A DNA stretch of 61,472 nucleotides, from NCBI GenBank assembly GCA_003221195.1, contig QHQO01000019.1, positions 1 to 61,472 on the forward strand, in the 5' to 3' direction. Position numbers and translations under genes: made by a program. The stretch's first letter is position 1. Each line of letters begins with the position of its first letter. The notes beneath the pieces are model-generated. The model was given only the letters and a program-made list of their open reading frames with translations. It made no database searches and was not told where the DNA came from. Positions 34,069-59,277 of the stretch are shown here, in pieces. The stretch comes from Verrucomicrobiota bacterium. Its GTDB lineage: Bacteria > Verrucomicrobiota > Verrucomicrobiia > Chthoniobacterales > UBA10450.

Positions 34069-35376
34069 TCAAACAGAACCAGCCGCAGGTGACTGGATAC
34101 TCTGCGTCCGTCCGTTTGCCATGATCCAATCAACTTCCCCATCAAACGCCACGATTTCTCCGAATAGGTCTCGGCCTTCACGGCAGGGAATGGCTATGAG
34201 ATCGGCTCGAAATCCGGGCCGAATCCGGCCAAGCGTGTTCTGCTGGCGTAGCGCCGACGCCGGATTCACTGTCACCATCTCAAAAATCTTCTCGGGTGAG
34301 CTCTCAGGTTCACTGCGCTGAAAGGCACGCATCTCTGCAAACAAACTCAGACTCTCATTGCTGGCGAGGCTATCAGTCCCCAGGCAAATGTTGAACCCAA
34401 GGCGACGCAATCGTTCGGATTGAAATGGGCTGTGACCAAAATAGTCATGGCTGCGCGGTGAATGCGCGACATGAAATTTTGTCCTTATTTTTTCCAGCAA
34501 TTCGAAGTCGCTTTCGGTCAATTCGTTTAAGTGCGCAACGACCCAGCGTTTCGGTAGGACGTGACCGCCGTGCGCGCCAAGGAACAACGCCAGTGGGGTT
34601 TCATGCCCACAGTCGCGCATGTCACGTCCAATATTTTTCATGAATTCGTAAAGCGGACCTGACGCATCTCGAAACATCTCCATTTCCTCTCGCGATTCCG
34701 CCAGATGCGTTGTGAGCAGGACGTCTTTGCCGGCTTCTTGACATCGTTGATACAGATTTTTGGATGCCGTAAACAGCGCATGTGGTGCTAATCCGTAGTT
34801 TTGCGCAGACTTCAGTGACTCGATTGCGAACGCGACAAATTCCTTTGCGCGATCGGGTGAGCGCACATCGATCAACTCTGCGAACCACCACATGCGAATT
34901 GGTGCATCTGGGAACTGACGGATCAGATCGGGGAACGCGGTTAGATTTGCGATCGTTGTCGTGCCGAATTGTTTTGCCTCCACGAATCCTTCATTGATCG
35001 AGACGATGTAATCCTCCGGCGAAAGTTTCGATTTCTCCGCGTTAATGGCCCGGATCCAATCAGTGAACGATTTTTCTCGGGGAATCTTCCGGCGCAAGCA
35101 GGTGTAGTCGAGATGACAATGCGCGTTAATCAAACCCGGCAAGAGAGCCTGCTCGCCAAGATCGATAATCTTCTCGCCCGAATGTCGCGCGGAGACTTCG
35201 GAAAATTTTCCAACATCGACAATCGAGCCGGCGGAAGCCGAGCGAGATAGACGGGCAGCCCGGGAGGGTGATGAGCCGGGAGGCGAATCATCAATTCGAT
35301 CTCCGGAAATTGCGATGGCGCCATTCTTAATAGGCGCTCCATCCATTGTCGCTACAACGCGAGCGCGAACGATCAT
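34069..35376 (-). CDS. Amidohydrolase (MTA/SAH deaminase-like)
   Basis: About 435 residues. The metal sites of the superfamily are present: LPGLINAHCHLDY (HxH), TTHLAESREE (His), WVVAHLNELTE (His) and CLGTDSLASNESLSLFAEMR (Asp). The C-terminal composite domain ends with GRIRPGFRADLIAIPC and WIMANGRT. The closest family type is TRZ/ATZ or 5'-methylthioadenosine/S-adenosylhomocysteine deaminase; the substrate is not certain. ATG at 35374-35376 overlaps the TGA of the upstream gene (ATGA), indicating coupling. Residues about 26-51 (DSPPGSSPSRAARLSRSASA region) are an insertion encoded by a palindromic repeat and absent from typical members. Confidence 0.87.
   Translation of the reverse strand: MIVRARVVATMDGAPIKNGAIAISGDRIDDSPPGSSPSRAARLSRSASAGSIVDVGKFSEVSARHSGEKIIDLGEQALLPGLINAHCHLDYTCLRRKIPREKSFTDWIRAINAEKSKLSPEDYIVSINEGFVEAKQFGTTTIANLTAFPDLIRQFPDAPIRMWWFAELIDVRSPDRAKEFVAFAIESLKSAQNYGLAPHALFTASKNLYQRCQEAGKDVLLTTHLAESREEMEMFRDASGPLYEFMKNIGRDMRDCGHETPLALFLGAHGGHVLPKRWVVAHLNELTESDFELLEKIRTKFHVAHSPRSHDYFGHSPFQSERLRRLGFNICLGTDSLASNESLSLFAEMRAFQRSEPESSPEKIFEMVTVNPASALRQQNTLGRIRPGFRADLIAIPCREGRDLFGEIVAFDGEVDWIMANGRTQSIQSPAAGSV
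35224..35299. repeat. Palindromic repeat inserted in frame in the amidohydrolase
   Basis: About 75 bases (25 codons) rich in GCCGGCGGAAGCCGAGCGAG and CGGGCAGCCCGGGAGGG. They are bounded by AATCGA/AATTCGA-like ends, which could be a target duplication. It sits between ISGDRI and VDVGKFSE, a surface-strand region of the composite domain. Confidence 0.55.
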
Positions 35377-36053
35377 TCGCTTTTCACCACTTTCCGACAT
35401 GCGGCGACCAAAAGATTGCACGGCTCCTGGCAGAGCAGCGGAATCGTAGCAAGAATCGCTCGGTCCGTCGTAGCGTTAGCGAATGTGGATGCGCCTGGCT
35501 CTGCCGGCGCTTGAACCTGATCCCAAGTCGGATCAAACTTTTCCTTTGGCAACCTTGTTGATGCAATCGCCCCGCGCTGGTCGCGGTCCCACAAAATCGT
35601 TCGCAAACAACCGTCTTTAGATCGGCAAAAATCTGCGACCAGATTGTCGATCTGTGAATCCGAAATCCTGGCGGCTATCCGATACATCCCCGATTGCCGA
35701 CCCAACGTTTCGCGAAGCGGCGTAGTGCGCAGCCGACCAGTCTTCCACGCAATGAAGATGGCCAGTCTACCTGGATAAAAATGATCAAGCGCGCGTTTCA
35801 ATCCATCCGATGTCCGAAGCTCGATGCGCCAGCCGTGCCGCAGATTGGGCGCCGTCTTTAGTGCACGGAAATTCCCCGCGTCGTCATACCTTGCGATCTC
35901 GATCGCGTCTTCCGGGCCTTGAAAGATTTCCAAATCATCGTGTGCTTCGTCGTTGCGATGGCAAAGAACAAAATCGTCACCGGTTTTTCGCACCAAGATT
36001 TGCCCGAAACAAAAAGGAACAGTTTCGATGACCTGCTCGACGGAATGTTCCAT
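35373..36053 (-). CDS. DR2241-like Fe-S protein of the CbiX cluster
   Basis: 226 residues from ATG at 36053. It begins MEHSVEQVIETVPFCFGQIL. The C-terminal half has cysteines in the order CRSKDGC and CQEPCNLLVAACRK, compatible with a 4Fe-4S site as described for Deinococcus DR2241, where such a domain is linked to a CbiX chelatase. Here the two parts are separate genes of one operon, with the GAF gene between them. The frame continues upstream into the GAF gene but is out of phase with it and Arg-rich, so the ATG was preferred. The stop overlaps the amidohydrolase start. Family placement is fairly confident; the function (chelatase stabilisation or redox) is inference. Confidence 0.65.
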   Translation of the reverse strand: MEHSVEQVIETVPFCFGQILVRKTGDDFVLCHRNDEAHDDLEIFQGPEDAIEIARYDDAGNFRALKTAPNLRHGWRIELRTSDGLKRALDHFYPGRLAIFIAWKTGRLRTTPLRETLGRQSGMYRIAARISDSQIDNLVADFCRSKDGCLRTILWDRDQRGAIASTRLPKEKFDPTWDQVQAPAEPGASTFANATTDRAILATIPLLCQEPCNLLVAACRKVVKSE

Positions 36054-36082
36054 CGGTTGGGCGCGACCACGGGCGCGCCGTG

Positions 36083-36544
36083 CTAGTGCAAACAATGCGC
36101 AATTAAGCCGCCGGCACGCTCCAGAAATTCCCGATCCTCTTCGCCGAACGCATTCAACTTGTCGCTTTCTACATCCATCATTCCGAGAATGCGCCGGTGC
36201 TCGTTGTTCCTCATCGGGACAACGATCTCCGAACGAGTGGTATGAAACGCGGGCAGATGCCGCGGATCCTTGTGCACGTCGCCGACGATGATCGGCTTTC
36301 CCGACTCTAGCGCAGCGCCGCACAGCCCCTGCGTAGTAGGAAACTGGGGGTAGGCGGGCGGCTCGTTGCCTGTGCCGGCGAGAATCACGAATTCATCTTT
36401 GACGATTTTGTAAACCGCCAGCCATCGATAGTCACGCGCCGAACGAATCATTTCCACCAATTGCTTCATTCGTTTTTTCGTGCAGCCGCCAGCCAGCGCA
36501 AACGCCCCGATCTCCTGCAGCTTCTTGCAAGTGGTTTCCTTCAT
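36083..36544 (-). CDS. GAF domain protein
   Basis: 153 residues from ATG at 36544. A single GAF domain: YRWLAVYKIVKDEFVILAGT, TQGLCGAALESGKPIIVGDV, HKDPRHLPAFHTTRSEIVVP and GMMDVESDKLNAFGEEDREF. The Cys in GLCGAA and the VPMR stretch resemble free-methionine-R-sulfoxide reductase type GAF proteins, but the full catalytic Cys set is not evident. It may instead bind a small ligand. It lies inside the CbiX-DR2241-amidohydrolase operon, 29 bases before the DR2241-like gene. Confidence 0.8.
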   Translation of the reverse strand: MKETTCKKLQEIGAFALAGGCTKKRMKQLVEMIRSARDYRWLAVYKIVKDEFVILAGTGNEPPAYPQFPTTQGLCGAALESGKPIIVGDVHKDPRHLPAFHTTRSEIVVPMRNNEHRRILGMMDVESDKLNAFGEEDREFLERAGGLIAHCLH

Positions 36545-36593
36545 TCGCGGGACAGCAATCTTGCGCAAAAAGAAACGACGCGCGAGCGCGATT

Positions 36594-37430
36594 TTAACTT
36601 TTTATGATACCTGTTTGCTCGATGATGATATCGGCAAAACCGGGATCTGTGCCAATGGAGGGCGCGTAGAACACGGAGCGACCGTTGATGCGGTACGGAT
36701 TGGCCCGGAAAATCTTACCACGCACTGTAGCCGGGGCCGCCGACCACGGCCGGCCGCGATCAACGCCTGCGGCTACAATGATCCCGATCAATCGCGGTAT
36801 GTCCTCGTAACTATGGAGTCCATCGGAAATAAAGAAGGGAACCACGATTACGTTCGGAGTTTTCGTCAATTTCCGCCACTCGGATACCAACGGCGGCTCT
36901 TCCATATACACGTTTAGCACCGTCCTATATTTCCCGAGGCAACGAATCTTTTCAGCCTCTCGCTTCGCAGCGACAGCGCTGTTTTCATTCAAATCCGTTC
37001 CATGCGCGACGATCAGCAAGCTTGTCTCAGTAGGATCGACATTGGGAGCGACCTCGCCTGCGCGCTTGAGCAGCAGCTCCGTCATCAGCGGGTGATTTCC
37101 AACTGGGTCGCAATATTTCCATACCTGGCCGTTCGATCGTCTTGTGATGCGGCCGCTCAATTCAAGCTCGCGCGGCACTACGGTCTGCGTGAAATAGCCT
37201 TCACTGATGAAATTCGGGACGACACAAACTTCTCGAATCGATTCCGGATCGAACAAAAAAGTCGCATCGCGCAAACTCGGTTCCTCCTTCCAAAAGGCGC
37301 ATTCCACATCAACAAAAATTTTCCGACGCCGAATCTCGACCGCATGCGCGAAGGTCGGCGCACTCGAATCCGGGTTCACTGTCGAGCCGTGTGCGACAAT
37401 GAGGAGGGCTACCTTTGTTTTTCCGGTCAC
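36594..37430 (-). CDS. CbiX/sirohydrochlorin chelatase family protein
   Basis: 278 residues from GTG at 37430. It has two chelatase-like halves: LLIVAHGSTVNPDSSAPTFA with VCVVPNFISEGYFTQTVVPR, and LLIVAHGTDLNENSAVAAKR with VIVVPFFISDGLHSYEDIPR. The His of each AHG motif is the expected metal/tetrapyrrole ligand. An upstream in-frame TTG lies in a GTTGAA-type repeat array (37432-37490), so it was not used. About 17 residues (VDRGRPWSAAPATVRG) near the C-terminus come from a palindromic repeat (36726-36778). Cobalt or iron insertion into sirohydrochlorin is the family role; no other tetrapyrrole gene is in the window. Confidence 0.85.
   Translation of the reverse strand: MTGKTKVALLIVAHGSTVNPDSSAPTFAHAVEIRRRKIFVDVECAFWKEEPSLRDATFLFDPESIREVCVVPNFISEGYFTQTVVPRELELSGRITRRSNGQVWKYCDPVGNHPLMTELLLKRAGEVAPNVDPTETSLLIVAHGTDLNENSAVAAKREAEKIRCLGKYRTVLNVYMEEPPLVSEWRKLTKTPNVIVVPFFISDGLHSYEDIPRLIGIIVAAGVDRGRPWSAAPATVRGKIFRANPYRINGRSVFYAPSIGTDPGFADIIIEQTGIIKS
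36726..36778. repeat. Palindromic repeat inserted in frame in the CbiX-like gene
   Basis: TGTAGCCGGGGCCGCCGACC at one end and CGCCTGCGGCTACA at the other. The ends TGTAGCCG and CGGCTACA are perfect inverted repeats. Confidence 0.65.
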
Positions 37431-37431
37431 A

Positions 37432-37490
37432 GCTAAACGCTCAACGCCCAACGCCCAACGTTCAACGTCCAATTTTATTGAGCGTTGAGC
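37432..37490. repeat. CAACGCCCAACG-type array at the CbiX start
   Basis: CTCAACGCCCAACGCCCAAC then GTTCAACGTCCAATTTTATT. It reads on the minus strand as GTTGGGCGTTGGGCGTTGAG just upstream of the GTG start, and it also lies in front of the divergent Uma2 gene. Confidence 0.6.
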
Positions 37491-38280: not shown

Positions 38281-41200
38281 CTATCTGCTGGCAGCCTTGG
38301 CTGCGGCGACGATTTTGTGGAAGCGCGAATCCCCGCGCAAATCATCCCAGCACGGATTCAAGAGGAGATCGCCATATGTCGGCGATCCGGGAGACCCTGG
38401 GATCGTCGCAATTTTTTCGAGTTGCTCGAGCGCGCGATCGCGCTCGCCGGTCCACGCGTAAACGAGCGCCAGATTGGCAACCATATCTGGACCGTTGAGC
38501 GAGTCCTTGGTAATCGGCAGGAGCTCGACCGCGCGCTGTGCTTCGCGAATCGCCTCTTCTTTCCGGTCAAGCCCGGCATCAAGCTGCGCGACTTCTCTGT
38601 AGTAGGCCTCGTCTCTGGGCTTATCCCCCAATCTTGCATCCAATTTCTTGCGCGCGGCTGCAAACACCGCCAGCGTTTTGTCCTTATTCCCGTGCGCACG
38701 CGCAACCTCTCCATCAGCCCGACTTTCCGGTCGTCCCTCGAAAAAGTCATCGGTGATGTTTGCGGGAATGCTAGCAATCACCCGGCTGGCCGCGTCATAA
38801 TTCCGTAGGTAAAGAGCTGCAGCGAATCGAGTCTCCCAGATCTGTTCAGTCGGACTGAAGTCCAGCGGCACTTGGTCCAGAAGAGATTGAGCCGCGTCTG
38901 GATTACCCTGCGCCAGCTTGATATCGGCGACCAGCGTCTGAAACCAGGTGTCCTCCATTGTGCCGCTCGCAACGCGCTTTTTTAGAACTTGTTCGTAATC
39001 GTAATAGCGGCGCATATAGCGATAAGTATCCCCAAGCCAGAATGCGACCTGGCGGTTCTGTGGGTCGAGGTCGTTTGCCTTTCGAAGATTGGCTACCGCA
39101 GAGTCCCAGCGATTCTGGCGTCTATCAATCCTTGCTTCGATAAAAAAGCGCTTCAGAATTGTTCGGCAACTTGCGTTGAGCGATGGCTAATTCCTCACGT
39201 GCCTGGTCGAAACTATCAGTGTTCACTCCTCCTTGTACGCCGCGACCTGCCGACAAAAAACCAGCGCGAAAGTAATAGTAAGCCAGCGCCAGATGAGCCT
39301 CGCCCAAGTCGGGTCGCAGTCGCAATGCAGTATCCGCAGCCTCCTTTGCTAACTCGAGGTGCTTGGAATCCAAGCTCAGCTCATAGAGATCGGCCTGCGT
39401 CCCCGCGAGCGCGCAATAGGCAAGGGCAAACTTCGGATCGCGCTGCGTGGCCTTTTCAAGGAGTTCAATCGCTCGATTGCCGCTTTTTTCCCAGCCCTCC
39501 CAATCGAGTCTGTCGCCGATCGCCTTTGCCTCTGTATAATAGGCATAGGCCACGGGATCGGCGGTCGGCCGATCTTCGATCGCAGCTTTTTCCGCCACTG
39601 AAAGCGTGGCGCGAAGTTGATTGGCGATTCGCTCAGCGATTTCGCTCTGGACGGCAAAGACATCGGCGAAGTCGCGATCGTAATGCTCAGCCCAAAGATG
39701 CGCATCGTTGCGCGCGTCGATCAGCTGCACGTTCAGCCGGACTCGTCTACCCGCGCGTTGGACACTGCCTTCGACCACATGCGAAACACCCAAAGTTTTT
39801 GCGATTTCGCGAAGGTTGCGTTCCAAACCGCTTTTGTATTTCATCACACTGGTTCGGCTGATGACTTTCAGGTCGGCAACCTTGGCGAGATCATTGAGGA
39901 TTTCGTCCTGCACACCTCCTGCGAAAAATGCGTTTTCTTCGTCTTTGCTGAGATTTTCAAACGGGAGCACAGCGATGCTTTTCTGCGGTGGTAAGGTCGT
40001 CGTCAGCGTGACCGGGTTCTTCGACTCCTCCAAGATTTTCTCAAAACGCGGGTCGCCGCGCAGCGGATCCCAGAATGGCATCAGTTTCAGATCGCCATAG
40101 CTTAGACTGTCTGGGAGGCGGATGATGCTATTCAACTGTTCGAATGCGAGATCTTTTTCGCCCACCGAGGCAGCGATCATCGCCAAATACTTGCGCATGC
40201 CGATGCCATCCAGTGCATCCTTTTCCACGGGAAGAAGCTCGACCGCACGCCGCCCTTCGTGGAGTGCTTCCTGCTTCTGGCCGAGACTAGCATCGATTAC
40301 GCCAAGCACGCTCAGCGCCTTGGCGTAATTTGGTTGAGCCTGGATGATTTTCTCCTGCTCCGCGCGTGCGGCGAGGAAAGCCTCGCGCGCTTTTTCATCG
40401 TCTTTTGTCATCCGAGCGATAACGCCTTCTGCAAATGGACGAGTGAAGTAAACATCGTAACCGAAGTCGATTGGATTTTCGCCTAGTGCGGTTAAGGCAT
40501 TTTTTGCGGCTGCGGCGTCGCGCTCGGCCAGTGCGCAAAAGAGCCAATCATTGGCGATGGTCGGCATCGCAGCGGGATTTGTGGTCCGAATAGAATCGAT
40601 GGTTTGATGCAACGGCCGGGTATCCGCTTTCCAGTCGAATTCCACGAACGCGCGCGCAACCTTCGCAGCGGCATCGTTCGGTTCGATGGCTAATAAGCGA
40701 TCCCCCACCGATTTTGCTTCGGCGTAACGTCGGACACGTGCATAATTTCCAGCGATCGACGCCAGCGCTCGAACACTGCGCGGGTCGAGTTCAATGGCGT
40801 GCGCGAGGTTTCGAGTGGATTCTTCCCAGCGCGCCTGACGCCTCTGGATGTAAGCCGTCAACTCGAATACCTCCGAGTTATTGGGCAAACTCTGGCGGGC
40901 AATTTCCAACTCAGCCAGAGCACTATCGTAATCGAGGTAGCCATGATAAAGATTCCATGCTCGCGCGAGATGCGCTTCGCCAGCATCTGGACGAAGGCGA
41001 AATGCAGCCTGAATGGCTGCTTCTGCTGAGGCCAGCCGCGCAGGAGTATGGTCAAAGCCAAAGAAGTAAAGGTCGTCGTGAAACCAGGCGAGTAGGCAAT
41101 ACGCATCGAAAAACGATGGATCACGCGCCACAGCCTGGTTCAGCAGCTCGATCGCCTGCAGCCGATCTGCTTTCCTCCCGACGCTGCTCGTCGCGAGCGT

Positions 41201-44200
41201 CGCGATAAGATTTTTGGCGCGCGTGTAGAGATCGAACCCGCTGATGTCGCTTGTGGGCGGTCGTTCGATCGCGGCCTCTTCGCTTGGTGAAAGTTTAGCC
41301 TGCAACTGATCGGCGATCGCTTTGGCGATCTCGCTTTGAATAGCGAACACGTCCGCGAGATCGCGATCGTACGTCTGGCCCCATAGACGCCGATCGGTGC
41401 GCGCATCGACCAATTGCGCATTGACCCGCACGCGATTGGCAGAGCGCTGAACACTTCCTTCTAGCATATGCGCTACTCCGAGTTCCCGGCCGATCTTGCG
41501 TAGATTGCGCGCGACCCCGGCCTTGTATTGCATCACAGATGTGCGGCCGATCACTTTCAGATCGGCGATCCTAGCCAAGTCGGTTAGAAGTTCATCCTGC
41601 ACGCCCCCGGCGAAAAATGCGTTTTCTTCGTCGTTGCTCAAATTTTCAAATGGCAACACAGCAATCGACTTTTCTGAAACCGGCACCTCTTCTAGCGTCA
41701 GTTCTTGAAAACGCGGATCGTTGCGAATTTTGTCCCAGAGCGGATCGAATCGGAGCGTTGCCGGAGTAAGAAACGTCGCACTGCCAAATCGTGTATGCAG
41801 CAGCCGCTTCAGCATGGGAATCGCGTGATCGGCACCACCGAGCTGCGCGTAAATGCGTGCCATGTCGTCCTCTGAATTCGTTCCGAATCCCGGATGTTTG
41901 GAACTTCGGAGCAGGGCCATGGCTTTTTCTCCTTCGGCGATAGCGGAAGCTGCGTCGCCCAAACCTGCGTAGGCCTCGGCCAACCGAATGTGAGTGTCTG
42001 CCTCCACACCTGAACCCGTTGCGAGCTCGCGGCGAAAACTTTCTATCGCTTTTTTGTACGTTGCGCTCGCCGCGGCTATGTCGCCAGCGAGTTGCTGGCT
42101 GAAAGCGAGCGAAAGAATATCCAGCGGGTCGCGTTGCCGGCGATCAACGGCTAAATCCTTTGAGAGTATCTCGACGGCCGCAGCATAATTGCGCTGAAAC
42201 AGCGCATACATAGCGCGCCGGTTCGCCGGGAGCTCCGGATTTGCAAGCAGTGGTTCGGCCGCTTGCAGATCGCCAATCGCTATAAGCGCATCGGCTTTTG
42301 TCAGAAGGGCACGGGCATTGGTCGGATCCCACGCGAGTATGCGGTCCAGTGTGGCCAGAGCTTCGGGGAAACGGCGCATCGCGCAGTAGGTCAGCGCCAG
42401 GTTGTTAGAGGCAGTGATGTTACGAGGATCGAGCTCGATGGCGCGTCGTAGTTCCGCAACAGCCTCGTCCCAATGCCCGCGTAATCGTTGCTTCAGGGCG
42501 ATCGCCTCTATAACATCAGCGCTATTCGGAAGACCCTGTTCGGCTTGCCTGAATTCCCCGAGCGCGCGCGTGTCGTCCTGCTCGTTATATCCGCGAGCGA
42601 GATGGACTTCCGGCAGGTTCGGATCGAGCGCGAGTGCGTGATTGAGGGAGTCCTTGGCCGCCGCCCGCCGCGCCCAGCTTGGCTCGAATCCTTTCCAGAT
42701 ACTCCGCATCTGTGCGATCGAGAGATATGCCCAGGCCAACGTGAAATTGGGATCCAACTTTACTGCTTCCTGGTACAAGCGAATTGCACCCTCAACATCA
42801 CCTTCCGCGTGAAAACCCCAGCCGACCGGAATCGCTCGCGCACGCAAATATGCATCGTAAGCAGCAGGATTGTTCGTGGGCTTGGCCACAACTCGCGCTT
42901 TCTCCTGCGGACTGAGCGTGGCACCCACCGCGTTGGCAATGTCTCTCGCCAGTTCGCCCTGCAAAGAAAGCGAGTCCGCCAGAGTGCGATCATAGTTCTC
43001 ACCCCAAAGATGACGGTCCATTTGCGCATCAATCAATTGGACAGAAACGCGCACACGATCTCCTGATCGACGGACGCTGCCTTCCACCACGTTGTTAACA
43101 CCCAGTTGCTGCGCGATCTCTTTAAGATTGCGTTTGGTGCCGCTCTTGTACTGCATCACGGAAGTGCGGCTGATCACTTTCAGCTCCTTGATCTTGGAAA
43201 GGTTCGAGAGCAACTCGTCTTGTACGCCATCGGCGAAAAACGCGTTCTGCTTGTCTTCGCTCAGGTTTTGCAGAGGCAGCACGGCGATGCTTTTGTCCGG
43301 CGGTAAGCTCGTTGTCAGGTTGCGTTGGCGAAAGAATGGAAACGTCAGCGCTAGCGCAGCTGCTAACAGCATCACCACGAGAGCAACCGGCGATCGTGCC
43401 CAGCGCAGCCATAAAGGAGCAGCGGCGCGTTGCAATTTGAATTCCAGTCTCCGCCGCAGCTCTTTGAGCGCGTGAAGTATCTCGTGCGCGCTGTGATACC
43501 GTTCTTCGCGATCTTTGCGCAGCGTTTTGCTGATGATCTGCTGAAGCTCGGCAGACGGGTGCGCGAGATAACGCGTGAGCGACGGCGGCTCTTTATCAAG
43601 AATCGCAGACATCACCTTTTGTGGCCCCGCCTGCAACGCCCCGCCTGCATCGCTTGCATTGCGGGCAGGTGTAGCACTGCGGGCAGGTGTGTCACCGGTG
43701 AATGGCGTATGCCCGGTTACCATTTCATAAAGCACCACCCCGAGACTCCAGATGTCGGTCCTTTTATCAATCTGCTCGCCGCACGCCTGCTCAGGTGACA
43801 TGTAGCGAACAGTTCCCAAGATCGACCCCAGATTGGTTTCAACCAGCAACAGCGCTTCGTTTTTCGGCATCGATGTTGGCAGCTCCTGCTCGGCAAGCTT
43901 TGCGATCCCAAAATCGAGCACTTTCGCGTAGCCATCCGGCCGAAGCATGATGTTCTCCGGCTTAATGTCGCGATGGACAATTCCTGCTTGATGCGCCGCC
44001 GCGAGCGCACTCGCCACCTGGATCGCGACATCAAGCGCTTCACTCAAATGCATTGGCCCGCGCTGTAAACGTTCGCGCAGCGTCTCGCCTTCGATCAGTT
44101 CGCTGGCGATGTAATGAATTGAGTGATCCTCCCCGATCTCGTAAACGGTCAAGATATTTGGATGATTGAGCGCAACTACGGCGCGCGCTTCTTGTTGAAA

Positions 44201-44584
44201 TCGCTTCAGGCGCTCCGGCTCGCCGGTAAAACGCATCGGCAGAAGTTTGAGCGCGGCCTTGCGGCCCGCTGTAATATCGATGGCCAGATAGACTTCACCC
44301 ATCCCGCCGGTGCCGATCGATTCAGAAATTTTGTAGTGGCCGATCGTTTGGCCGACGAGCGAATCAGCTTGGCCGTTTTGAATAATCTTGGTCGCGAGAC
44401 CAACAGCTGACGTTTCGATGAAGCTGGCTGCTCGTTGACGTGAAGCCAGAAGGGCTTCAACTCTGCGCCGCAAAACCTCATCGCCTCCACACGCCGTGTC
44501 CAGGAATGTGCTAATCTGGTCCGGCTGGTGATCTAGCGCTGCGCGAAAAATTTCCTCAATCGCTTGGAACCGCGCCGGCGTCAT
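38281..44584 (-). CDS. Giant Ser/Thr kinase with three TolB-TPR modules, one frameshift
   Basis: About 2,100 codons from ATG at 44584. The kinase domain (about 90-350) has GTGGMGEVYLAID, AALKLLPM, HRDIKPENIMLRP near residue 203, DFGIAK and SPEQ. One membrane segment lies near 405 (VALVVMLLAAALALTFPFF). Then come three successive units, each a TolB/FlgO-like domain plus TPR-like repeats, starting near 425 (SIAVLPLQNLSEDKQNAFFA), 971 (SIAVLPFENLSNDEENAFFA) and 1533 (SIAVLPFENLSKDEENAFFA). The reading frame breaks at a six-base homopolymer at 39142-39147; removing one base joins it smoothly to the last 240 codons (ARIDRRQNRWDSAV onwards). Typical relatives carry one module. A GAATGACGAA repeat precedes the start and an ECF factor lies upstream. 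Confidence 0.88.
43629..43692. repeat. Short repeat inserted in frame in the giant kinase
   Basis: Two copies of GCGGGCAGGTGT with related CGCCTGCA units encode about 20 residues (TPARSATPARNASDAGG). They sit between GHTPFTGD and QKVMSAILDKEPP, an exposed loop after subdomain IX of the kinase. Confidence 0.55.
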
Positions 44585-44589
44585 AAACG

Positions 44590-45170
44590 GGAAAATGACG
44601 AAATCCGAATGTCGAATGACGAAAGAATGACGAAGCTCGAATGACGAAAGCATTCGGCTTCGCAGGGTTTGGATGTTCGCATCGCGTTAGTCTTTTGCCT
44701 TGTTTCTCCAAATTCTGGAGAAGATTAGATGTAGCTCCTTTGCTTCAAGCCAGAGCACTCGAGCTTGTGGTTTCAATTCCGGCACGGCCCGAACGGCCAT
44801 TCGAAGGAAATGCTTGCTTTCGCGCGCTTCCTTCCGGCAAATGCCAATGCTTTTCAAAAAATCCTTTTTGGAGACTGCGTCGTCGGCTTCGACGTAGTTA
44901 GCACCCACGCTCGTGCCGGCCCCAACAAGTTGACCGATAATTCGATTGGTTACCGGATTTTGTGGAATCGTCTTCGCAAAATCGATGATCGCTTCGCCAA
45001 ATCGGGCCGTTCGTTCTTCCAAATCGTAATCGCGTTTTGTCTCTGGTTCTTCACGAACGAGGCCTGCCCCATCGTCCCAAAACGCATCGTCAGCGCCCGC
45101 CTCCAGGCCTTTTGATTTCGTCATTCCTTCGTCATTCGTCATTCGAACTTCGTCATTTCTATCAGGTCGC
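44590..45170. mobile_element. Four-helix-bundle gene flanked by inverted GAATGACGAA arrays
   Basis: Left flank (44600-44660) has AATGACGAAATCCGAATGTC and GAATGACGAAGCTCGAATGA. Right flank (45115-45165) has the same phrases in inverse orientation (TCGTCATTCCTTCGTCATTC, CGAACTTCGTCATTT). They enclose one small gene and separate the ECF sigma gene from its expected kinase partner. This looks like an inserted mobile unit of about 580 bases. No transposase is seen, so movement would need help in trans. The inference rests on flank symmetry. Confidence 0.5.
44687..45124 (-). CDS. Four-helix bundle (S23/IVP-like) protein
   Basis: About 145 residues. The core has the family features: YDLEERTARFGEAIIDFAKT, NRIIGQLVGAGTSVGANYVE, ADDAVSKKDFLKSIGICRKE and SKHFLRMAV. 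Such proteins were first noticed in 23S rRNA intervening sequences, and related folds include the Avd accessory proteins of retroelements; most are of unknown function. ATG at 45124 lies within the flanking GAATGACGAA repeat, so the true start may be further in, near the DYDLEERT stretch. It is placed between an ECF sigma gene and a kinase gene, apparently by insertion. Confidence 0.85.
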   Translation of the reverse strand: MTKSKGLEAGADDAFWDDGAGLVREEPETKRDYDLEERTARFGEAIIDFAKTIPQNPVTNRIIGQLVGAGTSVGANYVEADDAVSKKDFLKSIGICRKEARESKHFLRMAVRAVPELKPQARVLWLEAKELHLIFSRIWRNKAKD

Positions 45171-49735: not shown

Positions 49736-49899
49736 AATGGAGCTGATGGGATCAAGCGACATAGAAGGCAAAGCCGCGATGGGTAGCGGCGAGCGAGCTG
49801 GGAAGCGAGCGAGTTTCAATGGAGCTGATGGGATCAAGCGACATAGAAGGCAAAGCCGCGATGGGTAGCGGCGAGCGAGCTGGGAAGCGAGCGAGTTTC
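49736..49899. repeat. Tandem duplication of an 82-base unit
   Basis: Two copies of the sequence beginning AATGGAGCTGATGGGATCAA and ending GGGAAGCGAGCGAGTTTC. The copies appear identical, so the duplication is recent. It lies in the gap between uvrC and the PBP2 gene, with GCGAGCGAGC-type content. Confidence 0.95.
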
Positions 49900-49914: not shown

Positions 49915-51585
49915 TCAATGTCTTTGCAGGAATTGATGCACTTCTTCGGCCAACTTTCGGCCAATCCCTTCCGTGGAAGCGATTTCGTCCACCGTCGCTC
50001 TGCGCAGGCGATTCACCGAGCCGAACTTCCGCAACAGCAAATTCTTGCGGTTCTGACTCACACCGGGGCAATCATCAAGAATGCTTTCGCCGACTCGCTT
50101 TTTCATGAGCAATTGATGATACGCGTTGGCGAAGCGATGCGCCTCGTCGCGAATACGTTGAAGCAACCGCAAGGCGCCGGAGTCCATCGGAAGTTGCAGC
50201 GGCAACGCCCGGCCCGGCCGATAAATTTCCTCCCGTTCCTTGGCCAGGCCGATGATGGGAAGATCGTGAAGGCCTAATCGCTGCAATTCGCGGCACGCGG
50301 CGGAAAGCTGGCCCTTTCCACCATCGACAATGATCAGGTCTGGCAAGCGGACGGCAACAAAACCTCCGTCATTCTGAGCCGCGAGAGCTTTCGGGGTCGA
50401 GGAGTCCGGCGAAGTTACCTCTGGGTTTTGCAGTGGGATCCCTTCACCCATTCGACTATCGCTCAGGGCAGGCTTTTGGTCGGGATGACGGGAAATTCGC
50501 GCCAGCGCGTCGGCTGCATTCTCCTGCGAAAACTCCGCGATATCGGAGTTCGCCTTACGCGCCTCCAGCAGGACACGCGAATACCTGCGCCGGACAACCT
50601 CAGCCATGCTGGCGAAATCGTCCTGTCCTTCCACTGTTCGCACTCGATATCGGCGGTAATTGTCCTTATCCGGTACGCCATCCCGGAAACAAACCATCGA
50701 AGCGACGACATGCGTCGTGGAAATGTTTGAGATATCGAAGCATTCCATCACGCCCGGCACCTGCGGCAGTTGCAACGCATCAGCCAACGCGTGCACGTCA
50801 GCCATCGGATCGATCGAGCCCGGCAGACTGCCACGTGTAAAACGACGCATTGGCCTCGTCGTGCTGCGCAAGTCATCAATCATATTGCGCAACTCGGCAG
50901 CTTTCTCGAAATCCATTTTCTTGGCCGCCTTGCGCATTTCGTCTTCCAATATCGCGACCATTTCTCTCGATTTTCCTTCCAGGAACTCACAGGCTTGTAG
51001 GACGCGCTCGCGGTATTGCTCTGCCCTAATTTCGCTCAAACGCACTGGCACCTGATACGTCGCTGATTTTAATTCGCGCTCCGTAGGCGAGCCTCGTCCA
51101 AATGTGAGCACGCCAAATTTCTTGCGCATGAAATTCAATGTCTGCCGCAGCGCCCCGGCATGCGCATACGGACCGAAGTATCGGCTGCCGTCGTCCTTTT
51201 TGAACCGGGCCAGGCGAAAACGAGGCCACTCTTCCGAAAGATCGACCCGGACCAGCAGGAACCGCTTATCGTCCCGGAAGGAAACGTTGTAACGAGGCCG
51301 GTATTCCTTGATTAATTTGCCTTCCAGCAAAACTGATTCTGCTTCGCTGCGAACCGTATGCGTCTCGAAATTCCAGGTCGCCTCCAGCATGGCGCGCGTC
51401 TTCAAATCGGCTTGCGCCAGCTTGGACGGCAAAAAATATGAACCCACTCGTTTCCGGAGGTCCCGCGCTTTGCCCACGTAAATCACGCGGTTAAACCGGT
51501 CCCGCATCAGGTATACACCGGGCTTGTGCGGCACTTCGTGCACCTTTTTTTGCAGATCCGGCTTTTCTTTTTTTGACGAAGCCAT
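49915..51585 (-). CDS. uvrC: Excinuclease ABC subunit C
   Basis: 556 residues. The GIY-YIG domain is at the N-terminus (KPGVYLMRDRFNRVIYVGKA). The UVR motif is in AAKKMDFEKAAELRNMIDDL. The RNase H-like endonuclease domain has MECFDISNISTTHVVASMVC and PDLIIVDGGKGQLSAACREL, and helix-hairpin-helix motifs close the protein (NRLRRATVDEIASTEGIGRK). Two oddities. The region that usually holds four cysteines after the GIY-YIG domain has none here (GVLTFGRGSPTERELKSATY). An insertion of about 40 residues before FVAVRLPDLI is encoded by a palindromic repeat. UvrC makes both incisions in nucleotide excision repair. Confidence 0.93.
   Translation of the reverse strand: MASSKKEKPDLQKKVHEVPHKPGVYLMRDRFNRVIYVGKARDLRKRVGSYFLPSKLAQADLKTRAMLEATWNFETHTVRSEAESVLLEGKLIKEYRPRYNVSFRDDKRFLLVRVDLSEEWPRFRLARFKKDDGSRYFGPYAHAGALRQTLNFMRKKFGVLTFGRGSPTERELKSATYQVPVRLSEIRAEQYRERVLQACEFLEGKSREMVAILEDEMRKAAKKMDFEKAAELRNMIDDLRSTTRPMRRFTRGSLPGSIDPMADVHALADALQLPQVPGVMECFDISNISTTHVVASMVCFRDGVPDKDNYRRYRVRTVEGQDDFASMAEVVRRRYSRVLLEARKANSDIAEFSQENAADALARISRHPDQKPALSDSRMGEGIPLQNPEVTSPDSSTPKALAAQNDGGFVAVRLPDLIIVDGGKGQLSAACRELQRLGLHDLPIIGLAKEREEIYRPGRALPLQLPMDSGALRLLQRIRDEAHRFANAYHQLLMKKRVGESILDDCPGVSQNRKNLLLRKFGSVNRLRRATVDEIASTEGIGRKLAEEVHQFLQRH
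50367..50491. repeat. CGTCATYCYGA-ended repeat inserted in frame in uvrC
   Basis: About 125 bases with imperfect terminal inverted repeats: CGTCATTCTGAGCCGCGAG at one end, and CAGGCTTTTGGTCGGGATG with ACG at the other. It encodes HPDQKPALSDSRMGEG and PDSSTPKALAAQNDGG in uvrC. It matches the intergenic family at 47664 and 54150. Confidence 0.7.
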
Positions 51586-54149: not shown

Positions 54150-54190
54150 ATCGCTTGCGAGATTCTTCGCTTCGCTCAGAATGACGCGTA
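54150..54190. repeat. GATTCTTCGCTTCGCTCAGAATGACG repeat end
   Basis: TTCTTCGCTTCGCTCAGAAT then GACG. This is the conserved end of the CGTCATTCTGAGCG family; the opposite end near 54105 has a CAGGCTGCCAGCCTG palindrome. It fills most of the hisS-aspS gap. Confidence 0.6.
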
Positions 54191-54203
54191 CTTTTGGCAT
54201 CGC

Positions 54204-55991
54204 ATGTATCGCACGCACGATTGCAATTCTCTTCGCAAGAGCGACATCGGCAGGCAAGTCGCGCTGGCCGGTTGGGTAAATGTCACCCGCGATCATGGCG
54301 GAGTCATTTTCATTGATCTCCGCGATCGCGAAGGCCTGACGCAAATCGTGTTTCGGCCGGAGGAAAACGCGGAGCTTGCGAAGCAGGCGCATACATTGCG
54401 CAATGAAGACGTCCTTCAGGTTTCCGGTCACGTCGCTGCGCGCCTGCCAGGCACAGAAAATCCAAACCTTGCTACGGGCGACATCGAAATCATTCCGAGC
54501 GGACTGAAGATTCTGAATCGGGCTGACGATCTGCCGTTCCCAATCGACGCCAACCCGCACAACGAAGATTTGCGGATGACCCATCGGTATTATGACCTGC
54601 GCCGTCCCCGCTTTGCGCGCAACCTGCGGCTGCGACACCTCGCGGCGAAGGCGACGCGTGATTATCTCGACAGCCAGGGTTATCTCGAGGTTGAGACTCC
54701 AATCCTTTCCAAAAGCACACCGGAAGGGGCGCGCGATTTTTTAGTGCCAAGTCGAATGACGCCTGGAAAATTTTATGCGCTGCCGCAGGCGCCTCAGCAA
54801 TACAAACAACTCCTGATGGTCGCCGGCGTGGAAAAATATTTTCAGATCGCCAGATGTTTTCGCGACGAAGATTTGCGCGCCGACCGGCAACCTGAATTTA
54901 CCCAGATTGATATCGAGGCATCGTTCGTTACGCCAGAGGACATTTTCGCGGTTACCGAGGGAATGCTCGCTGCAATCTTCAAGGCTGCGCGCAACGTCGA
55001 GATCAAGATCCCGTTTGACCGACTTACTTACCGCGAAGCCGTTGATCGCTATGGGAGCGACAAACCCGATCGCCGTTTTGGGATGGAACTCGTCGACCTT
55101 GGAGAAAGTTTTCGCGAGAGTAGTTTCAAAGTCTTTCGCAGTGCGCTGGAATCTGGCGGCGTCGTGAAAGCAATTAACGCGAAGGGTTTTGCCGGAATCA
55201 CCATTGGGCAGGCAGACGAATTAACGGAAATTGCGAAGTTGTACCGCGCCAAAGGGCTCGCATTTATCAAGATTGAGAACGGCGAATGGAAATCGCCGAT
55301 TGTGAAGTTTTTTTCTGAGACTGAAAAGGCAGCGCTACGATCGAAACTAAAAATCGAGGAGGGGGACTGCGTCTTTTTCGGCGCAGACAAATGGGAAATC
55401 GCTTGTGAAGTTCTTGGGCGGTTGCGGTTGCGCATCGCAGAGATTCAGGATTTGCATGGTAGGGCGCGACCGCCGGGCGCGCCGGAATGGGATTTCCTCT
55501 GGGTCACAGATTTTCCGCTGTTTGAATGGAGCCCGGAAGAAAATAAATGGAACGCCATGCATCATCCTTTTACACGGCCGAAAGCGGAGGATATGTCGCT
55601 GTTTAATGAAAAGAAATTTCCCGATGTTCGAGCCGAAGCGTACGACGTCGTTTTGAATGGTGTCGAAATCGGTGGCGGCAGTATCCGAATTTACGAGTCG
55701 GAGTTGCAGGACAAAATGTTCGAAACTCTCGGCATTAGCCCTGAAAACCGGCAAGCGCAGTTCGGTCATTTGCTGCGTGCGCTGCGTCTTGGCGCGCCGC
55801 CACACGGTGGAATCGCGTTCGGGCTCGATCGGCTAGTGATGCTCATCGCCGGCGAACAAAATATTCGCGACGTAATAGCATTCCCAAAAAACAATCGGGG
55901 CATGGACCTGATGTCGAATTCACCCGCAGGAGTGGATGCCCGGCAGTTGCGGGATTTGTCGCTCAAACTAGCAAAAGATAAAGAACTGTAG
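54204..55991 (+). CDS. aspS: Aspartyl-tRNA synthetase
   Basis: 595 residues from ATG at 54204. Anticodon-binding OB fold (GWVNVTRDHGGVIFIDLRDR), class II motif 2 (ARCFRDEDLRADRQPEFTQI), the bacterial GAD insertion domain (VVKAINAKGFAGITIGQADE), and motif 3 (FGLDRLVMLIAGEQNIRDVI). The start at MYRTHDCNSLRK matches the family N-terminus; earlier in-frame codons read through a repeat. About nine residues (HGRARPPGA before PEWDFLWVTDFP) are encoded by a GC-rich palindrome. Whether it also charges tRNA-Asn cannot be judged here. Confidence 0.95.
   Translation: MYRTHDCNSLRKSDIGRQVALAGWVNVTRDHGGVIFIDLRDREGLTQIVFRPEENAELAKQAHTLRNEDVLQVSGHVAARLPGTENPNLATGDIEIIPSGLKILNRADDLPFPIDANPHNEDLRMTHRYYDLRRPRFARNLRLRHLAAKATRDYLDSQGYLEVETPILSKSTPEGARDFLVPSRMTPGKFYALPQAPQQYKQLLMVAGVEKYFQIARCFRDEDLRADRQPEFTQIDIEASFVTPEDIFAVTEGMLAAIFKAARNVEIKIPFDRLTYREAVDRYGSDKPDRRFGMELVDLGESFRESSFKVFRSALESGGVVKAINAKGFAGITIGQADELTEIAKLYRAKGLAFIKIENGEWKSPIVKFFSETEKAALRSKLKIEEGDCVFFGADKWEIACEVLGRLRLRIAEIQDLHGRARPPGAPEWDFLWVTDFPLFEWSPEENKWNAMHHPFTRPKAEDMSLFNEKKFPDVRAEAYDVVLNGVEIGGGSIRIYESELQDKMFETLGISPENRQAQFGHLLRALRLGAPPHGGIAFGLDRLVMLIAGEQNIRDVIAFPKNNRGMDLMSNSPAGVDARQLRDLSLKLAKDKEL
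55455..55487. repeat. Short palindrome in frame within aspS
   Basis: GGTAGGGCGCGACCGCCGGG then CGCGCC: GGCGCG and CGCGCC pair around an ACCGCCGGG loop. It encodes GRARPPGA, residues not expected at this position in AspRS. Confidence 0.5.
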
Positions 55992-55994
55992 TGG

Positions 55995-56011: not shown

Positions 56012-56031
56012 TTGCGTAACGAAATGCGGAT

Positions 56032-56352: not shown

Positions 56353-56449
56353 GGGATTTCAGCGGTTGATGTTGCGTGGAAAGGGCTGTCGTTAACGCTT
56401 GAAGTATTCCAGTGATGCCCGTCCGGTCAATCCCTGTTTCAATACCGCG

Positions 56450-58051
56450 CTAAGCCTCGGGCGGGTGATGTTCGCGGCCGGTCCGGAAAAGAATCGCCAC
56501 AAAAAACGTGACGATGGTGCCGAAACAGATCCACCATGGAAATGCCAATACCGGAAGCCAACCCGGCTGCTTGTAGAGCTGCGTGCTGAAAATACTGGCG
56601 ACGCCATTGGGCAATCCGCTCAAGATGGCGACGACGGCAAAGCCAACGATCATGGCAATGATGTTGCCGCGATCGTTCCCGCGCGTCCTGGTTAGCATTC
56701 CCGCAAAAAACACACCGAGCAGTGAGCCATAAGTATAGCCGAAAACGCTGAGGACAATTGGAATGATTCGGACATTAGGATGCACGATGACAAGATAGGA
56801 AGTAGTCGATGCCACGACGATCATCAGAACCGAGAACCAAACTGTGGCCCAGCGCACAGCGCGAAGACTTTGTTCACTTGTTGATGCAGGATTGATGTAA
56901 GGTTCATACCAATCACGTGTGAAACTGGTGGCGAGCGCGTTCAACGCGGTGCTGAGCGATCCCATGGCGGTGGCGAAGATCCCGGCGAGCAGCAATCCGC
57001 GAAGACCCACTGGCATTTGATAAAGAATGAAGTGGCAGAATGTTTCGTTCGGAGTCTTCGACAGCGTCGGATCGGGATGGGCCTGATAATAAACCCACAG
57101 CAATAAGCCGATGCTGAGAAACGTGAACGCGAGCGGGATGTCGGCGAGCCCGGAGCAAATAAGAGAGAGACGGCTCCGGCGTATGTCGGGCGCAGTCAAC
57201 ATTCGCTGCACCATGTCCTGATCCGTGCCGTGCGTGCCCATCGTGATGAATACTGCCCCGATCACGGCAAAAATTGTGTACTCGGTCTCGAACATGCTCT
57301 TCACTTTGTCCCAGCCATGTTTGGCCGGGTCGAGACCGGTTGTGATGAGATCCGAGACCTGAAACGCGCCGTGGCGTTGCACGATCTCGTGCCAGCCTCC
57401 TGGAATTGCGAAGTAAAGCAACCCAAGGGCAATTAACGCGCTCCCAATCATGATAGTGGCTTGAATTAAATCGGTCCAGATGACGGCCTTGATACCGCCG
57501 AACGTGGTATAAATGGCCGTGAGAATGACGATGGCAATCGTGGCACCGAGGTAAATCCAGAGAGTTTGAGTTTGATTTGGTCGAGTGCCGCTGATCATTT
57601 CGTAGGCAAGCGCGAGTGCAATGGCTGCCACATATAACCGCGCTCCGGAAGCAAGCAGACGGGTGATCATGAAAACAGCGGAAGCCGCGTTCTTGCTCGC
57701 AACCCCGAAGCGCGTGGTCAGGTACTCGTAGATCGAAAAAACTTTGTAGTCGTAATACGGCTTGATGAAAATATAGCTGACGAGAATGCGTCCGACGATC
57801 GTGCCGAAGGCGAGCTGTAAATAGGTATAATCGCGGTGGCTGAAGCCTTCCCCGGGCGTCCCGAAAAAAGTACCGGCACTTGTTTCAGCCGCCACGAGCG
57901 AGGCGAGCACGGCCCACCACGGAATTCTGCGACCGCCGAGCGCGAAGTCCTTGAGATTTTCCTCCTTCCGGCCCATGTAAAGGCCGATGGAAATGATTAG
58001 GATGAAATAGAGGAGTAGGACGCCACAATCAATAATCAGCCGAGCGTTCAT
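56450..58051 (-). CDS. Sodium:solute symporter (SSS family)
   Basis: 533 residues from ATG at 58051, with about thirteen membrane segments. SSS features include GRRIPWWAVLASLVAAETSA near the N-terminus, YLTTRFG, and the central YTTFGGIKAVIWTDLIQATI, a well-known family signature region. LSTALNALATSFTRDWYEPY follows further on. Substrate cannot be told from sequence; sugar or amino-acid uptake with Na+ is likely. An in-frame TTG 18 bases upstream lies at the edge of a repeat and was not used. Confidence 0.9.
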   Translation of the reverse strand: MNARLIIDCGVLLLYFILIISIGLYMGRKEENLKDFALGGRRIPWWAVLASLVAAETSAGTFFGTPGEGFSHRDYTYLQLAFGTIVGRILVSYIFIKPYYDYKVFSIYEYLTTRFGVASKNAASAVFMITRLLASGARLYVAAIALALAYEMISGTRPNQTQTLWIYLGATIAIVILTAIYTTFGGIKAVIWTDLIQATIMIGSALIALGLLYFAIPGGWHEIVQRHGAFQVSDLITTGLDPAKHGWDKVKSMFETEYTIFAVIGAVFITMGTHGTDQDMVQRMLTAPDIRRSRLSLICSGLADIPLAFTFLSIGLLLWVYYQAHPDPTLSKTPNETFCHFILYQMPVGLRGLLLAGIFATAMGSLSTALNALATSFTRDWYEPYINPASTSEQSLRAVRWATVWFSVLMIVVASTTSYLVIVHPNVRIIPIVLSVFGYTYGSLLGVFFAGMLTRTRGNDRGNIIAMIVGFAVVAILSGLPNGVASIFSTQLYKQPGWLPVLAFPWWICFGTIVTFFVAILFRTGREHHPPEA

Positions 58052-58069
58052 ATCGGCCTTATTTATCAA

Positions 58070-58150
58070 TGACGAATGACGAATGTCGAATGACGAAAGG
58101 AATCCGAATGAAGAATGACGAAACAGATCCGAATGTTTAAATGACGAAGC
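58070..58150. repeat. GAATGACGAA array
   Basis: AATGACGAATGACGAATGTC, GAATGACGAAAGGAATCCGA and AAATGACGAAGCATTTG. It lies in the divergent gap between the symporter and the ogg-like gene, in the same orientation as the arrays at 31972 and 44590. Confidence 0.75.
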
Positions 58151-58167
58151 ATTTGATCTTCATTGAA

Positions 58168-58260
58168 AAGGTGGATCGGCTTTTCCTCAAGACGATACTA
58201 AAATAACTGCACCTTCGGCGCCTGGATTGACATCGCGTTGAGGACAACGCGATCCACCTT
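58168..58260. repeat. 93-base inverted repeat abutting the ogg-like start codon
   Basis: The left end AAGGTGGATCGGCTTTTCCT and the right end, whose reverse complement is AAGGTGGATCGCGTTGTCCT, match at about 20 of 23 positions. The ATG of the glycosylase follows without a gap, so the right arm occupies the place of the ribosome-binding site. Confidence 0.75.
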
Positions 58261-59277
58261 ATGAAGTTCATCGAAATTCCCGCATCCGACTTCGATCTCG
58301 CAATGACACTGGACTCCGGCCAGGTGTTTCATTGGGAAAAGGCCGACAATGGATTCGTGGGAACGATCGGCGATTGCGCCGTTTACATCGAGGAGTGTGG
58401 GGAGCTCTTGCGCGCAAGCGTGGCATCGGCTTCCAGCCGATTGATTTCAGATGATGGGCAGGATGCCCATGCCGCGATTTGCCGTTACTTCGCGCTTGAT
58501 CACCCACTGGCAGAAATCTGCGCGTCATTCCCGGACGATCCGGCAATGAACGCGGCGCGGCACTTTTGTCGCGGTTTACGAATCATTCGCCAGCCGAAAT
58601 GGGAATGTCTGGCCACGTTCATCTGTTCGTCGATGAAACAGGTGGCACATATTCGTCAGATCTCGCTCGCGCTCCGTCGACGCCTTGGTGAGAGACGAAA
58701 AGTCGGTGATCATGCGGTTTACACGTTTCCGCCAGCGCAACGAATTGCCCGCGCTACTGAGAATGATTTGCGCGAATGCGCGCTAGGTTATCGCGCCAAA
58801 AATCTACTCGCGACTGCCCGGCTTATCAGTTCAGGTGAATGTGATCTGGAATCATGGTCGGCTCTTTCTGATCCCGATCTTAGAGAGAAGTTGTGCTCCT
58901 TGCCCGGCGTGGGAGCGAAGATAGCCAACTGCGTACTGCTGTTTGCCTATGAGCGCCTGCGCGCATTTCCGATCGACGTCTGGATCGAGAGAGTTTTGAA
59001 ACAAAAATATTTCCCGCGGAAGAAAAAAGTCACGGAACCCCGGCTGCGCGAATTTTCGGAAACATATTTTGGCGAACATGGCGGTTACGCGCAGCAATAC
59101 TTATTTCACCATGCGCGAATGATCTCGCGGAAGTCAGGAACACCAAGGGATTCCTCGACTACGCTTCGCTCCGCTCGGAATGACAAAAGGGAGGACGCGC
59201 GAATCGCTTCTCGGAAGCCATCACCTCAGGCGAGCCGGGAAGCGCACCTGGCCAAGTTGTCAGCACCCTTGGGCTGA
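58261..59277 (+). CDS. ogg: 8-oxoguanine DNA glycosylase (OGG1-like)
   Basis: 338 residues. The N-terminal beta part (FDLAMTLDSGQVFHWEKADN) is OGG-like. The helix-hairpin-helix/GPD segment is LCSLPGVGAKIANCVLLFAY, with the catalytic Lys in GAKIANC, and the Asp is in FPIDVWIERV. It removes 8-oxoguanine from DNA and can nick by beta-elimination. Two parts are repeat-derived: about 18 residues (VASASSRLISDDGQDAHA) after ELLRAS, and the last 45 or so residues, which read through an ATTCCTCGACTACGCTTCGC-type repeat. Translation would start directly after an inverted repeat with no clear Shine-Dalgarno. Confidence 0.87.
   Translation: MKFIEIPASDFDLAMTLDSGQVFHWEKADNGFVGTIGDCAVYIEECGELLRASVASASSRLISDDGQDAHAAICRYFALDHPLAEICASFPDDPAMNAARHFCRGLRIIRQPKWECLATFICSSMKQVAHIRQISLALRRRLGERRKVGDHAVYTFPPAQRIARATENDLRECALGYRAKNLLATARLISSGECDLESWSALSDPDLREKLCSLPGVGAKIANCVLLFAYERLRAFPIDVWIERVLKQKYFPRKKKVTEPRLREFSETYFGEHGGYAQQYLFHHARMISRKSGTPRDSSTTLRSARNDKREDARIASRKPSPQASREAHLAKLSAPLG
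58421..58474. repeat. Palindromic repeat inserted in frame in the ogg-like gene
   Basis: 54 bases (18 codons). ATCGGC-TTCCA-GCCGAT and GGGCA-GGA-TGCCC are two hairpins, and GGCAT occurs near both ends. The surrounding protein sequence reads on normally (AAICRYFALDHPL). Confidence 0.65.

Follow-up and report, generated by a model that had tools for sequence, protein, structure and literature searches.

Palindromic repeats lying in frame in protein-coding genes of an uncultured Chthoniobacterales bacterium, and REP-associated transposases within its housekeeping proteins

How do short repeats come to lie inside protein-coding genes without breaking the reading frame? The question is raised by a contig of 61,472 nucleotides from a Verrucomicrobiota genome (QHQO01000019.1, here called the window), in which six genes carry such segments: an amidohydrolase, a CbiX-like gene, a large kinase, uvrC, aspS and an ogg-like DNA glycosylase. 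An earlier sequence-only reading had proposed that mobile palindromic repeats of several families spread in frame, and at a high rate, in this lineage, and the analysis supports this proposal. We consider it probable that the segments are repetitive extragenic palindrome (REP)-type repeats that are mobilised by REP-associated tyrosine transposases (RAYTs) and tolerated in permissive loops, and that RAYTs are themselves resident in housekeeping proteins. The window is the entire contig C237 of a genome of 3.10 Mb in 276 contigs, 86.8% complete with 4.3% contamination. The best named relatives of its UvrC come from soil Verrucomicrobia, Spartobacteria and Chthoniobacterales metagenome-assembled genomes (MAGs), including the uncultured Candidatus Udaeobacter, to which the source, itself an uncultured Chthoniobacterales MAG, is akin.

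All six proposed segments were found at the positions in Table 1, each in a stop-free frame of an identified gene and with the frame kept. Read from the sequence, the terminal tags are GTAG in aspS, cbiX and, less clearly, the kinase, GTGG in ogg and CGTC in uvrC, while none of these three tags was recognised in the amidohydrolase insert. The cbiX insert is arranged head-to-head, TGTAGCC...GGCTACA, with a GTAG tag at each end, the kinase insert contains nested inverted repeats, and the ends of the uvrC insert are CGTCAT...ATGACG. When each insert was shuffled 300 times, a fold as stable as the original was reached by 1 shuffle for the amidohydrolase, 4 for cbiX, 5 for ogg, 9 for the kinase, 23 for uvrC and 41 for aspS. 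Judged by folding, the palindromic or repeat character claimed for all six is strong in four inserts and weak in uvrC and aspS, and folding energy was rejected as a general proof of palindromy. Short direct repeats seen by eye at the amidohydrolase and kinase inserts are possible target-site duplications, and ambiguous.

Table 1. Inserts and other repeat copies in the window, with their strand and the gene or frame in which they lie (aa, amino acids).
Feature	Position	Strand	Gene or frame	Remarks
Amidohydrolase insert, 24 aa	35224..35299	-	gene 34069-35421; Pfam Amidohydro_1	
CbiX-like insert	36726..36778	-	gene 36594-37472; Pfam CbiX	
Kinase insert	43629..43692	-	1842-aa protein (39125-44653); Pfam Pkinase	in the kinase-domain part
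uvrC insert	50367..50491	-	uvrC (49915-51585)	ahead of the conserved RLPDLIIVDGGKG part
aspS insert	55455..55487	+	aspS (54198-55991); tRNA-synt_2	family H, GTAG-tagged GGTAGGGCGCGACC...
ogg insert	58421..58474	+	ogg-like DNA glycosylase (58261-59277); OGG_N and HhH-GPD	family J, GTGG-tagged GTGGCATCGGC...
Family-A repeat	59133..59187	+	ogg	encodes part of the C-terminal tail; 29-aa difference from G006 in the indel scan
Family-A repeat	54158..54185	+	5' extension of the aspS frame	weak coding score before the repeat; probably upstream of the real aspS start at 54198
Family-E repeat	15435..15516	+	start of frame 15429-16202	weak coding score; may be untranslated

The segments had also been assigned to surface loops. 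In a structure prediction the uvrC insert (residues about 365-406) lies in a region, residues 365-410, that has a predicted local distance difference test score (pLDDT) below 50 and is predicted to be disordered, and the insertion site of aspS is a loop in the T. thermophilus AspRS structure 6hhv. The inserts other than that of uvrC are presumably at the surface as well.

Ortholog alignments of up to 30 loci per gene agree with the claim that the segments are absent from the usual family sequence: all six are in-frame inserts or replacements in variable loops, missing in some of the relatives. For the amidohydrolase the insert is a clean addition: of the 28 aligned rows that cover the site, 4 carry it, those of the source genome (G000) and of its relatives G016, G003 and G010. 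The kinase insert is found in the source genome and as a variant in G014, another short insert is present in G030, and no insert is found in the other 14 of 17 covering rows, some of which are paralogs. Loops of variable length form the sites in uvrC, cbiX, aspS and ogg, and species differ in the insert that they carry or have none. The cbiX loop can hold four insert types (GTAGCC...GGCTAC, GTCAT...ATGAC, CGCCTTCGGTCGGC and GACGGCTTCCCAGCC) or none, and among relatives the uvrC loop holds GTCAT-ended palindromes, heptamer arrays, GTAG-type repeats or none. This fits the proposal that several repeat families are involved; aspS and ogg carry members of two families, H and J.

If these were ordinary changes in loop length or local duplications, no mobile element would be needed. 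Loop length does vary even where no repeat is recognisable, and the heptamer arrays in the uvrC loop of relatives resemble slippage products. However, this explanation is at odds with dispersed multi-copy families that have shared borders, occur inside and outside genes and pair with RAYTs (see below); it is already disfavoured for aspS and ogg, and for the window inserts we regard it as improbable. An indel scan was run on the 48 called genes of the window, 22 of which were testable, having at least two orthologs in the fetched relatives. It flagged the sites in the amidohydrolase, cbiX and uvrC, three of the six. In ogg it flagged another site, the family-A repeat near the C-terminus; the reported site was left unflagged because the five compared orthologs carry their own inserts there. 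No indel of 8 aa or more was flagged in aspS, and the 1842-aa kinase protein had too few orthologs for the scan, which also showed indels in kinase-repeat proteins and in fragmentary orthologs.

The turnover at these loops was counted on a 30-taxon tree that was itself derived from the five genes scored, with their variable columns removed. The minimum number of state changes is 8 for uvrC, 6 for aspS, 11 for cbiX, 3 for the amidohydrolase and 9 for ogg, at least 37 in total, with states labelled by eye and with several kinds lumped both in the "other" class of ogg and in the heptamer class of uvrC. Within the limits of such labelling and lumping, these counts speak against a single origin for each insert. 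One might instead ascribe the patchy distribution mainly to whole-allele recombination between related species after few original insertions. Conflict with the tree is the expected outcome of such exchange, and the recG genes of G007 and G023 are nearly identical though the species are not sisters. However, different families at one loop, such as the four types in cbiX and at least three kinds in uvrC, need separate insertions, and the source genome differs from G016, its nearest relative on the tree, both in cbiX state and in the family held by the ogg loop. We find allele exchange rather unlikely as the main cause.

The sequence-only reading had proposed to count repeat copies inside and outside genes. 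The count was run on 60 stretches plus the window, together 661,547 bases or 21% of the source genome, using de novo comparison followed by models for 13 families, with gene calls from a codon model. The family models gave 0 matches in reversed sequence. The 13 families yield 155 non-overlapping copies, of which 94 are intergenic, 26 lie over a gene end, 20 are internal (flanked on either side by coding sequence), 11 are N-terminal and 4 are C-terminal or in weak frames. Altogether 16 genes hold the internal copies; besides aspS and ogg in the window, these genes include carB and those for UbiD, the transcription-repair coupling factor (with two families), a family-B DNA polymerase, a class II tRNA synthetase, an SMC protein and a tRNA methyl transferase. 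Together with the state changes counted above, the internal copies fit the proposed high rate of the process in this lineage.

The relation of the window inserts to repeats of the same genome is clear for two of them: family H of aspS has one internal and four intergenic non-overlapping copies in the sample, and the ogg insert is a member of the multi-copy family J. The amidohydrolase insert has one more copy (86% identity over 64 nt, L192:314-377), inside a second ogg-like gene, and the uvrC insert has partial copies only. For the cbiX and kinase inserts the relation was not found in the sample, and their membership of repeat families may be read here from their form and from relatives. The second ogg-like gene (L192, G000:C111, positions 1-837) lies on a short contig, with the amidohydrolase-type repeat between its two halves; it could be a paralog or a contamination of the bin.

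The carriers include uvrC, ogg, recG, mfd and both IMS-type and family-B DNA polymerases, and a benefit for the host, e.g. by tuning repair enzymes, might keep the inserts in place. Such a benefit has been speculated upon for REPs in repair genes (PMC3733652). However, carB, metH, tRNA ligases, a permease and a glycosyltransferase are carriers as well, and the repeats at one loop vary between species and are sometimes missing, so retention for host benefit appears very doubtful.

A candidate for the mobilising enzyme is found inside genes of the same genome that lie outside the window. The Pfam domain Y1_Tnp has 11 matches in the source genome and matches in 50 of 58 relatives. In the source genome's carB frame the domain lies between two inverted family-B repeats, in the tsaC/sua5 frame between J repeats, and the alaS frame contains it too. 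According to NCBIfam the domains embedded in carB, alaS and tsaC are REP-associated tyrosine transposases, with scores of 67-77 bits. The NCBIfam model NF047646 matches five chimeric frames with E-values of 1e-18 to 1e-22, and Y1_Tnp is over its cut-off. In the frames that hold a RAYT, the models of the host proteins (carB, alaS and L-threonylcarbamoyladenylate synthase) exceed their own cut-offs. Identity was established with Pfam and NCBIfam for one or two members per host, and for the remaining members by alignment and motifs.

In-frame RAYTs are found in recG of 18 genomes, including G035 from another genus and G038 and G051 from other families, in carB of the source genome and 12 others (cut by contig ends in G012 and G020), at two sites in metH of relatives, in alaS of G000, G024, G031 and G050, and in tsaC of G000 and G024. 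Three further hosts are found in one genome each, valS (G042), clpB (G050) and rarA (G015), and in G037 a RAYT lies in a 916-aa frame that holds runs of unknown bases (L352). Mapped onto solved structures, the carB site lies between residues 475 and 489 of E. coli 1bxr; in human 4xem the alaS site falls between 419 and 422. The metH frame of G007 (L365, G007:C150) contains two RAYTs in frame; the first lies at the start of the contig and the second further in. At the alaS site, L406 (G002:C236) and L424 (G039:C24) carry long inserts, 72-89 aa between anchors, that are unlike RAYTs.

The two main subfamilies differ in how often they are embedded. Outside alaS the alaS-type RAYT has 31 matches, in recG (18), metH (7), carB (1) and short frames (5), and since 26 of the 31 lie in recG, metH or carB frames the embedded state is common in this subfamily. 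Outside carB the carB-type has 17 matches, 6 in long frames and 11 not, and embedding is not the rule there. In the carB of G004 (L388, G004:C99) an alaS-type RAYT stands in place of the carB-type, so this one site has received two kinds of RAYT. In the carB of G016 the flanking repeats are kept and the RAYT is missing (73 versus 273 residues from one shared anchor to the other), an example of another route to bare repeats in frame. Among named genomes, 7 of 13 have Y1_Tnp matches in frames longer than 500 aa, and for Chthoniobacter flavus there is none in such frames among the matches listed. In a sample of the phylum 78 of 145 genomes match, with at least 11 matches in frames longer than 500 aa, one of them from the source genome. 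Judged by these matches, RAYT embedding looks less common outside this group.

Are the embedded RAYTs functional proteins? The ratio of nonsynonymous to synonymous substitution rates (dN/dS) was calculated for the nearest nine pairs per host, and in the 18 usable pairs, saturated ones being left without a value, it is 0.05-0.24 in the RAYT part and 0.06-0.17 in the host part. Of 46 embedded RAYTs, 45 retain the HUH motif and 43 the Tyr motif. Low dN/dS and retained motifs indicate that they are kept as protein and are not decaying inserts. Similar frames have been treated as artefacts before, as unexpectedly long members of the family were discarded as fusions or annotation errors (PMC6006769), and some carB copies are broken. 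However, functionless fusions, pseudogenes or assembly errors would not explain why many different MAGs, some from other families of the order (G038, G045, G050, G051), share the same sites, nor the stop-free frames, the low dN/dS and the motifs; and in the source genome one carB and one alaS were found. We regard this explanation as quite unlikely.

Between the alaS genes of G000 and G031 the proportion of nonsynonymous differences (pN) is 0.31 in the RAYT and 0.105 in the host, which suggests that the two RAYTs arrived separately at one site. In the RAYT tree the carB rows form one group (90/92, unstarred), recG needs 4 changes and alaS 2. Vertical descent and repeated arrival would thus both occur, or be indistinguishable in these sequences.

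The flanks of the RAYTs connect them with the dispersed repeats. Inverted REPs flank the RAYTs in carB (family B, two inverted copies), tsaC (J) and alaS (a family of 3 copies), as well as the transposases C168 (D), C218b and C1 (both K). Elsewhere in the source genome the flanks of the carB RAYT match 13 places (family B), and those of the tsaC RAYT match 7 (family J), 5 of them inside genes, including ogg of the window. The flanks of the C168 transposase match 9 places, mostly of family D, and family-K flanks match 6 places for the C218b and 5 for the C1 transposase. At 23 of 23 bases, the ogg insert of the window is identical to the repeat on the 3' side of the RAYT embedded in tsaC of this genome (L323). 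Nothing else connects an insert of the window so directly with a candidate mobilising enzyme; for the other five window inserts no such tie to a RAYT flank was found. Pairing each repeat family with a RAYT was also tried, and failed for the alaS flanks, for C6 and for family H. At L345 and L181 (G000:C218 and C1) transposase genes stand alone between inverted repeats of family K, TTTAGCGCC...GCGCGATTCA, and represent a second, non-embedded kind in this genome.

The reading that we prefer, that RAYTs mobilise REP-type repeats which are tolerated in permissive loops, would work as follows. The six inserts would be copies, some of them decayed, of REP-type palindromic repeats from several families, moved in trans as single-stranded hairpins by RAYT (HUH, Y1) transposases. 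A copy in a coding region would survive only if the frame is kept and the loop is permissive, and therefore loops of core proteins would collect repeats again and again, being tolerated rather than chosen. Whole RAYT genes with their flanking repeats would also enter housekeeping genes in frame and persist as expressed internal domains under purifying selection, the chimeric proteins being made and working, and in-frame loss of the RAYT could leave the repeats alone, as in the carB of G016.

Several points weigh against this reading. All data are MAGs. Movement has not been observed, nor has a rule for target sites been established. The uvrC and aspS inserts are unexceptional by folding alone, and in the 21% sample the cbiX and kinase inserts have no second copy. 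The uvrC insert resembles the CGTC-type repeats, which are described without a known transposase (PMC3733652). No RAYT was found for family H, the flanks of the alaS RAYT match only 1 other place in the source genome, and those of C6 match 0. The embedded RAYTs score just under the curated NCBIfam cut-off of 80. Synonymous sites are near saturation and many pairs are unscorable, and the carB frame is broken outside the RAYT in G014 and G032 and inside it in G001 and G013.

The embedded RAYTs invite a comparison with inteins and homing endonucleases, mobile genes that reside in frame at fixed sites of conserved and often essential proteins. In-frame residence is the likeness. The difference is that no splicing domain is seen here among the Pfam and NCBIfam matches listed for the chimeric frames, so the RAYT would stay in the mature protein. 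We lean, with some reserve, towards the view that in this lineage RAYTs reside in essential proteins much as inteins do, but without splicing: insertion in frame into permissive loops (carB, alaS, tsaC, recG, metH and others) would give them constant expression, they could be lost only by precise in-frame deletion, and their flanking repeats would spread in frame to further genes, e.g. those of the window.

Rickettsia palindromic elements, which lie in frame in many proteins, had been named as the precedent. Likened by description, they share the in-frame palindromes; the lineage and the repeats are others. A closer match is provided by the GTAG and CGTC REPs of Di Nocera et al. 2013 (PMC3733652), i.e. 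short palindromes with GTAG, GTGG or CGTC ends, arranged in dimers, with several families per genome. They are mostly intergenic; some lie in frame in genes, e.g. those for excinuclease and tRNA synthetases, and the highest intragenic GTAG count was reported for Opitutus terrae, a verrucomicrobium (PMC3733652). The repeats studied here likewise form several families with some in-frame intragenic copies, and tags of this kind can be read in most of the window inserts. The known tie of GTAG families to RAYTs is seen in J (ogg), which pairs with the tsaC RAYT, and in B, D and K, which pair with other transposases. Unlike the REPs in the cited part of that paper, they turn over at the same loops across a genus, and core genes carry RAYTs in frame. 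In the RAYT/TnpA-REP systems or REPtrons, HUH-Y1 genes have inverted REPs on their flanks and correspond to a family of dispersed repeats of that kind (PMC3733652, PMC8266576, PMC6006769), as is the case here. However, in these sources they are usually described as separate genes, whereas here many are internal domains of housekeeping proteins. The open-access literature gave no report of RAYTs in frame inside host genes; subscription papers were outside the search. Bare REPs within genes are thus already known, also in this phylum, and the resident in-frame RAYTs are the new part.

Other repeats are present in the window. An exact tandem duplication of an 82-base unit (49736-49899) lies between a PBP2-like gene and uvrC, and its unit is family G, which is found elsewhere in the genome. 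Family C forms arrays of heptamer-like units, AATGACGA / CGAATGTC, around gene starts and ends (31973-32029, 44593-44649, 45108-45158 and 58043-58148), and these arrays stand apart from the palindromic families. The large kinase and repeat proteins (23170-29149 and 39125-44653) contain internally duplicated modules, spaced by about 3 kb between two adjacent kinase/repeat genes, with three modules inside the 1842-aa protein. Tandem coding repeats are found as 126-base units at 1-504 and as short Thr/Pro-rich units at 20621-21103 in gene 20074-21954.

This abundant soil lineage offers a testable system in which core proteins are landing sites for repeats and carriers of the transposase. The system bears on the persistence of RAYTs, although these are seldom multi-copy, and on how protein loops acquire new sequence. 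For annotation it means that fused frames may be dismissed as errors. The occupied loops form a natural catalogue of insertion-tolerant sites in essential enzymes.

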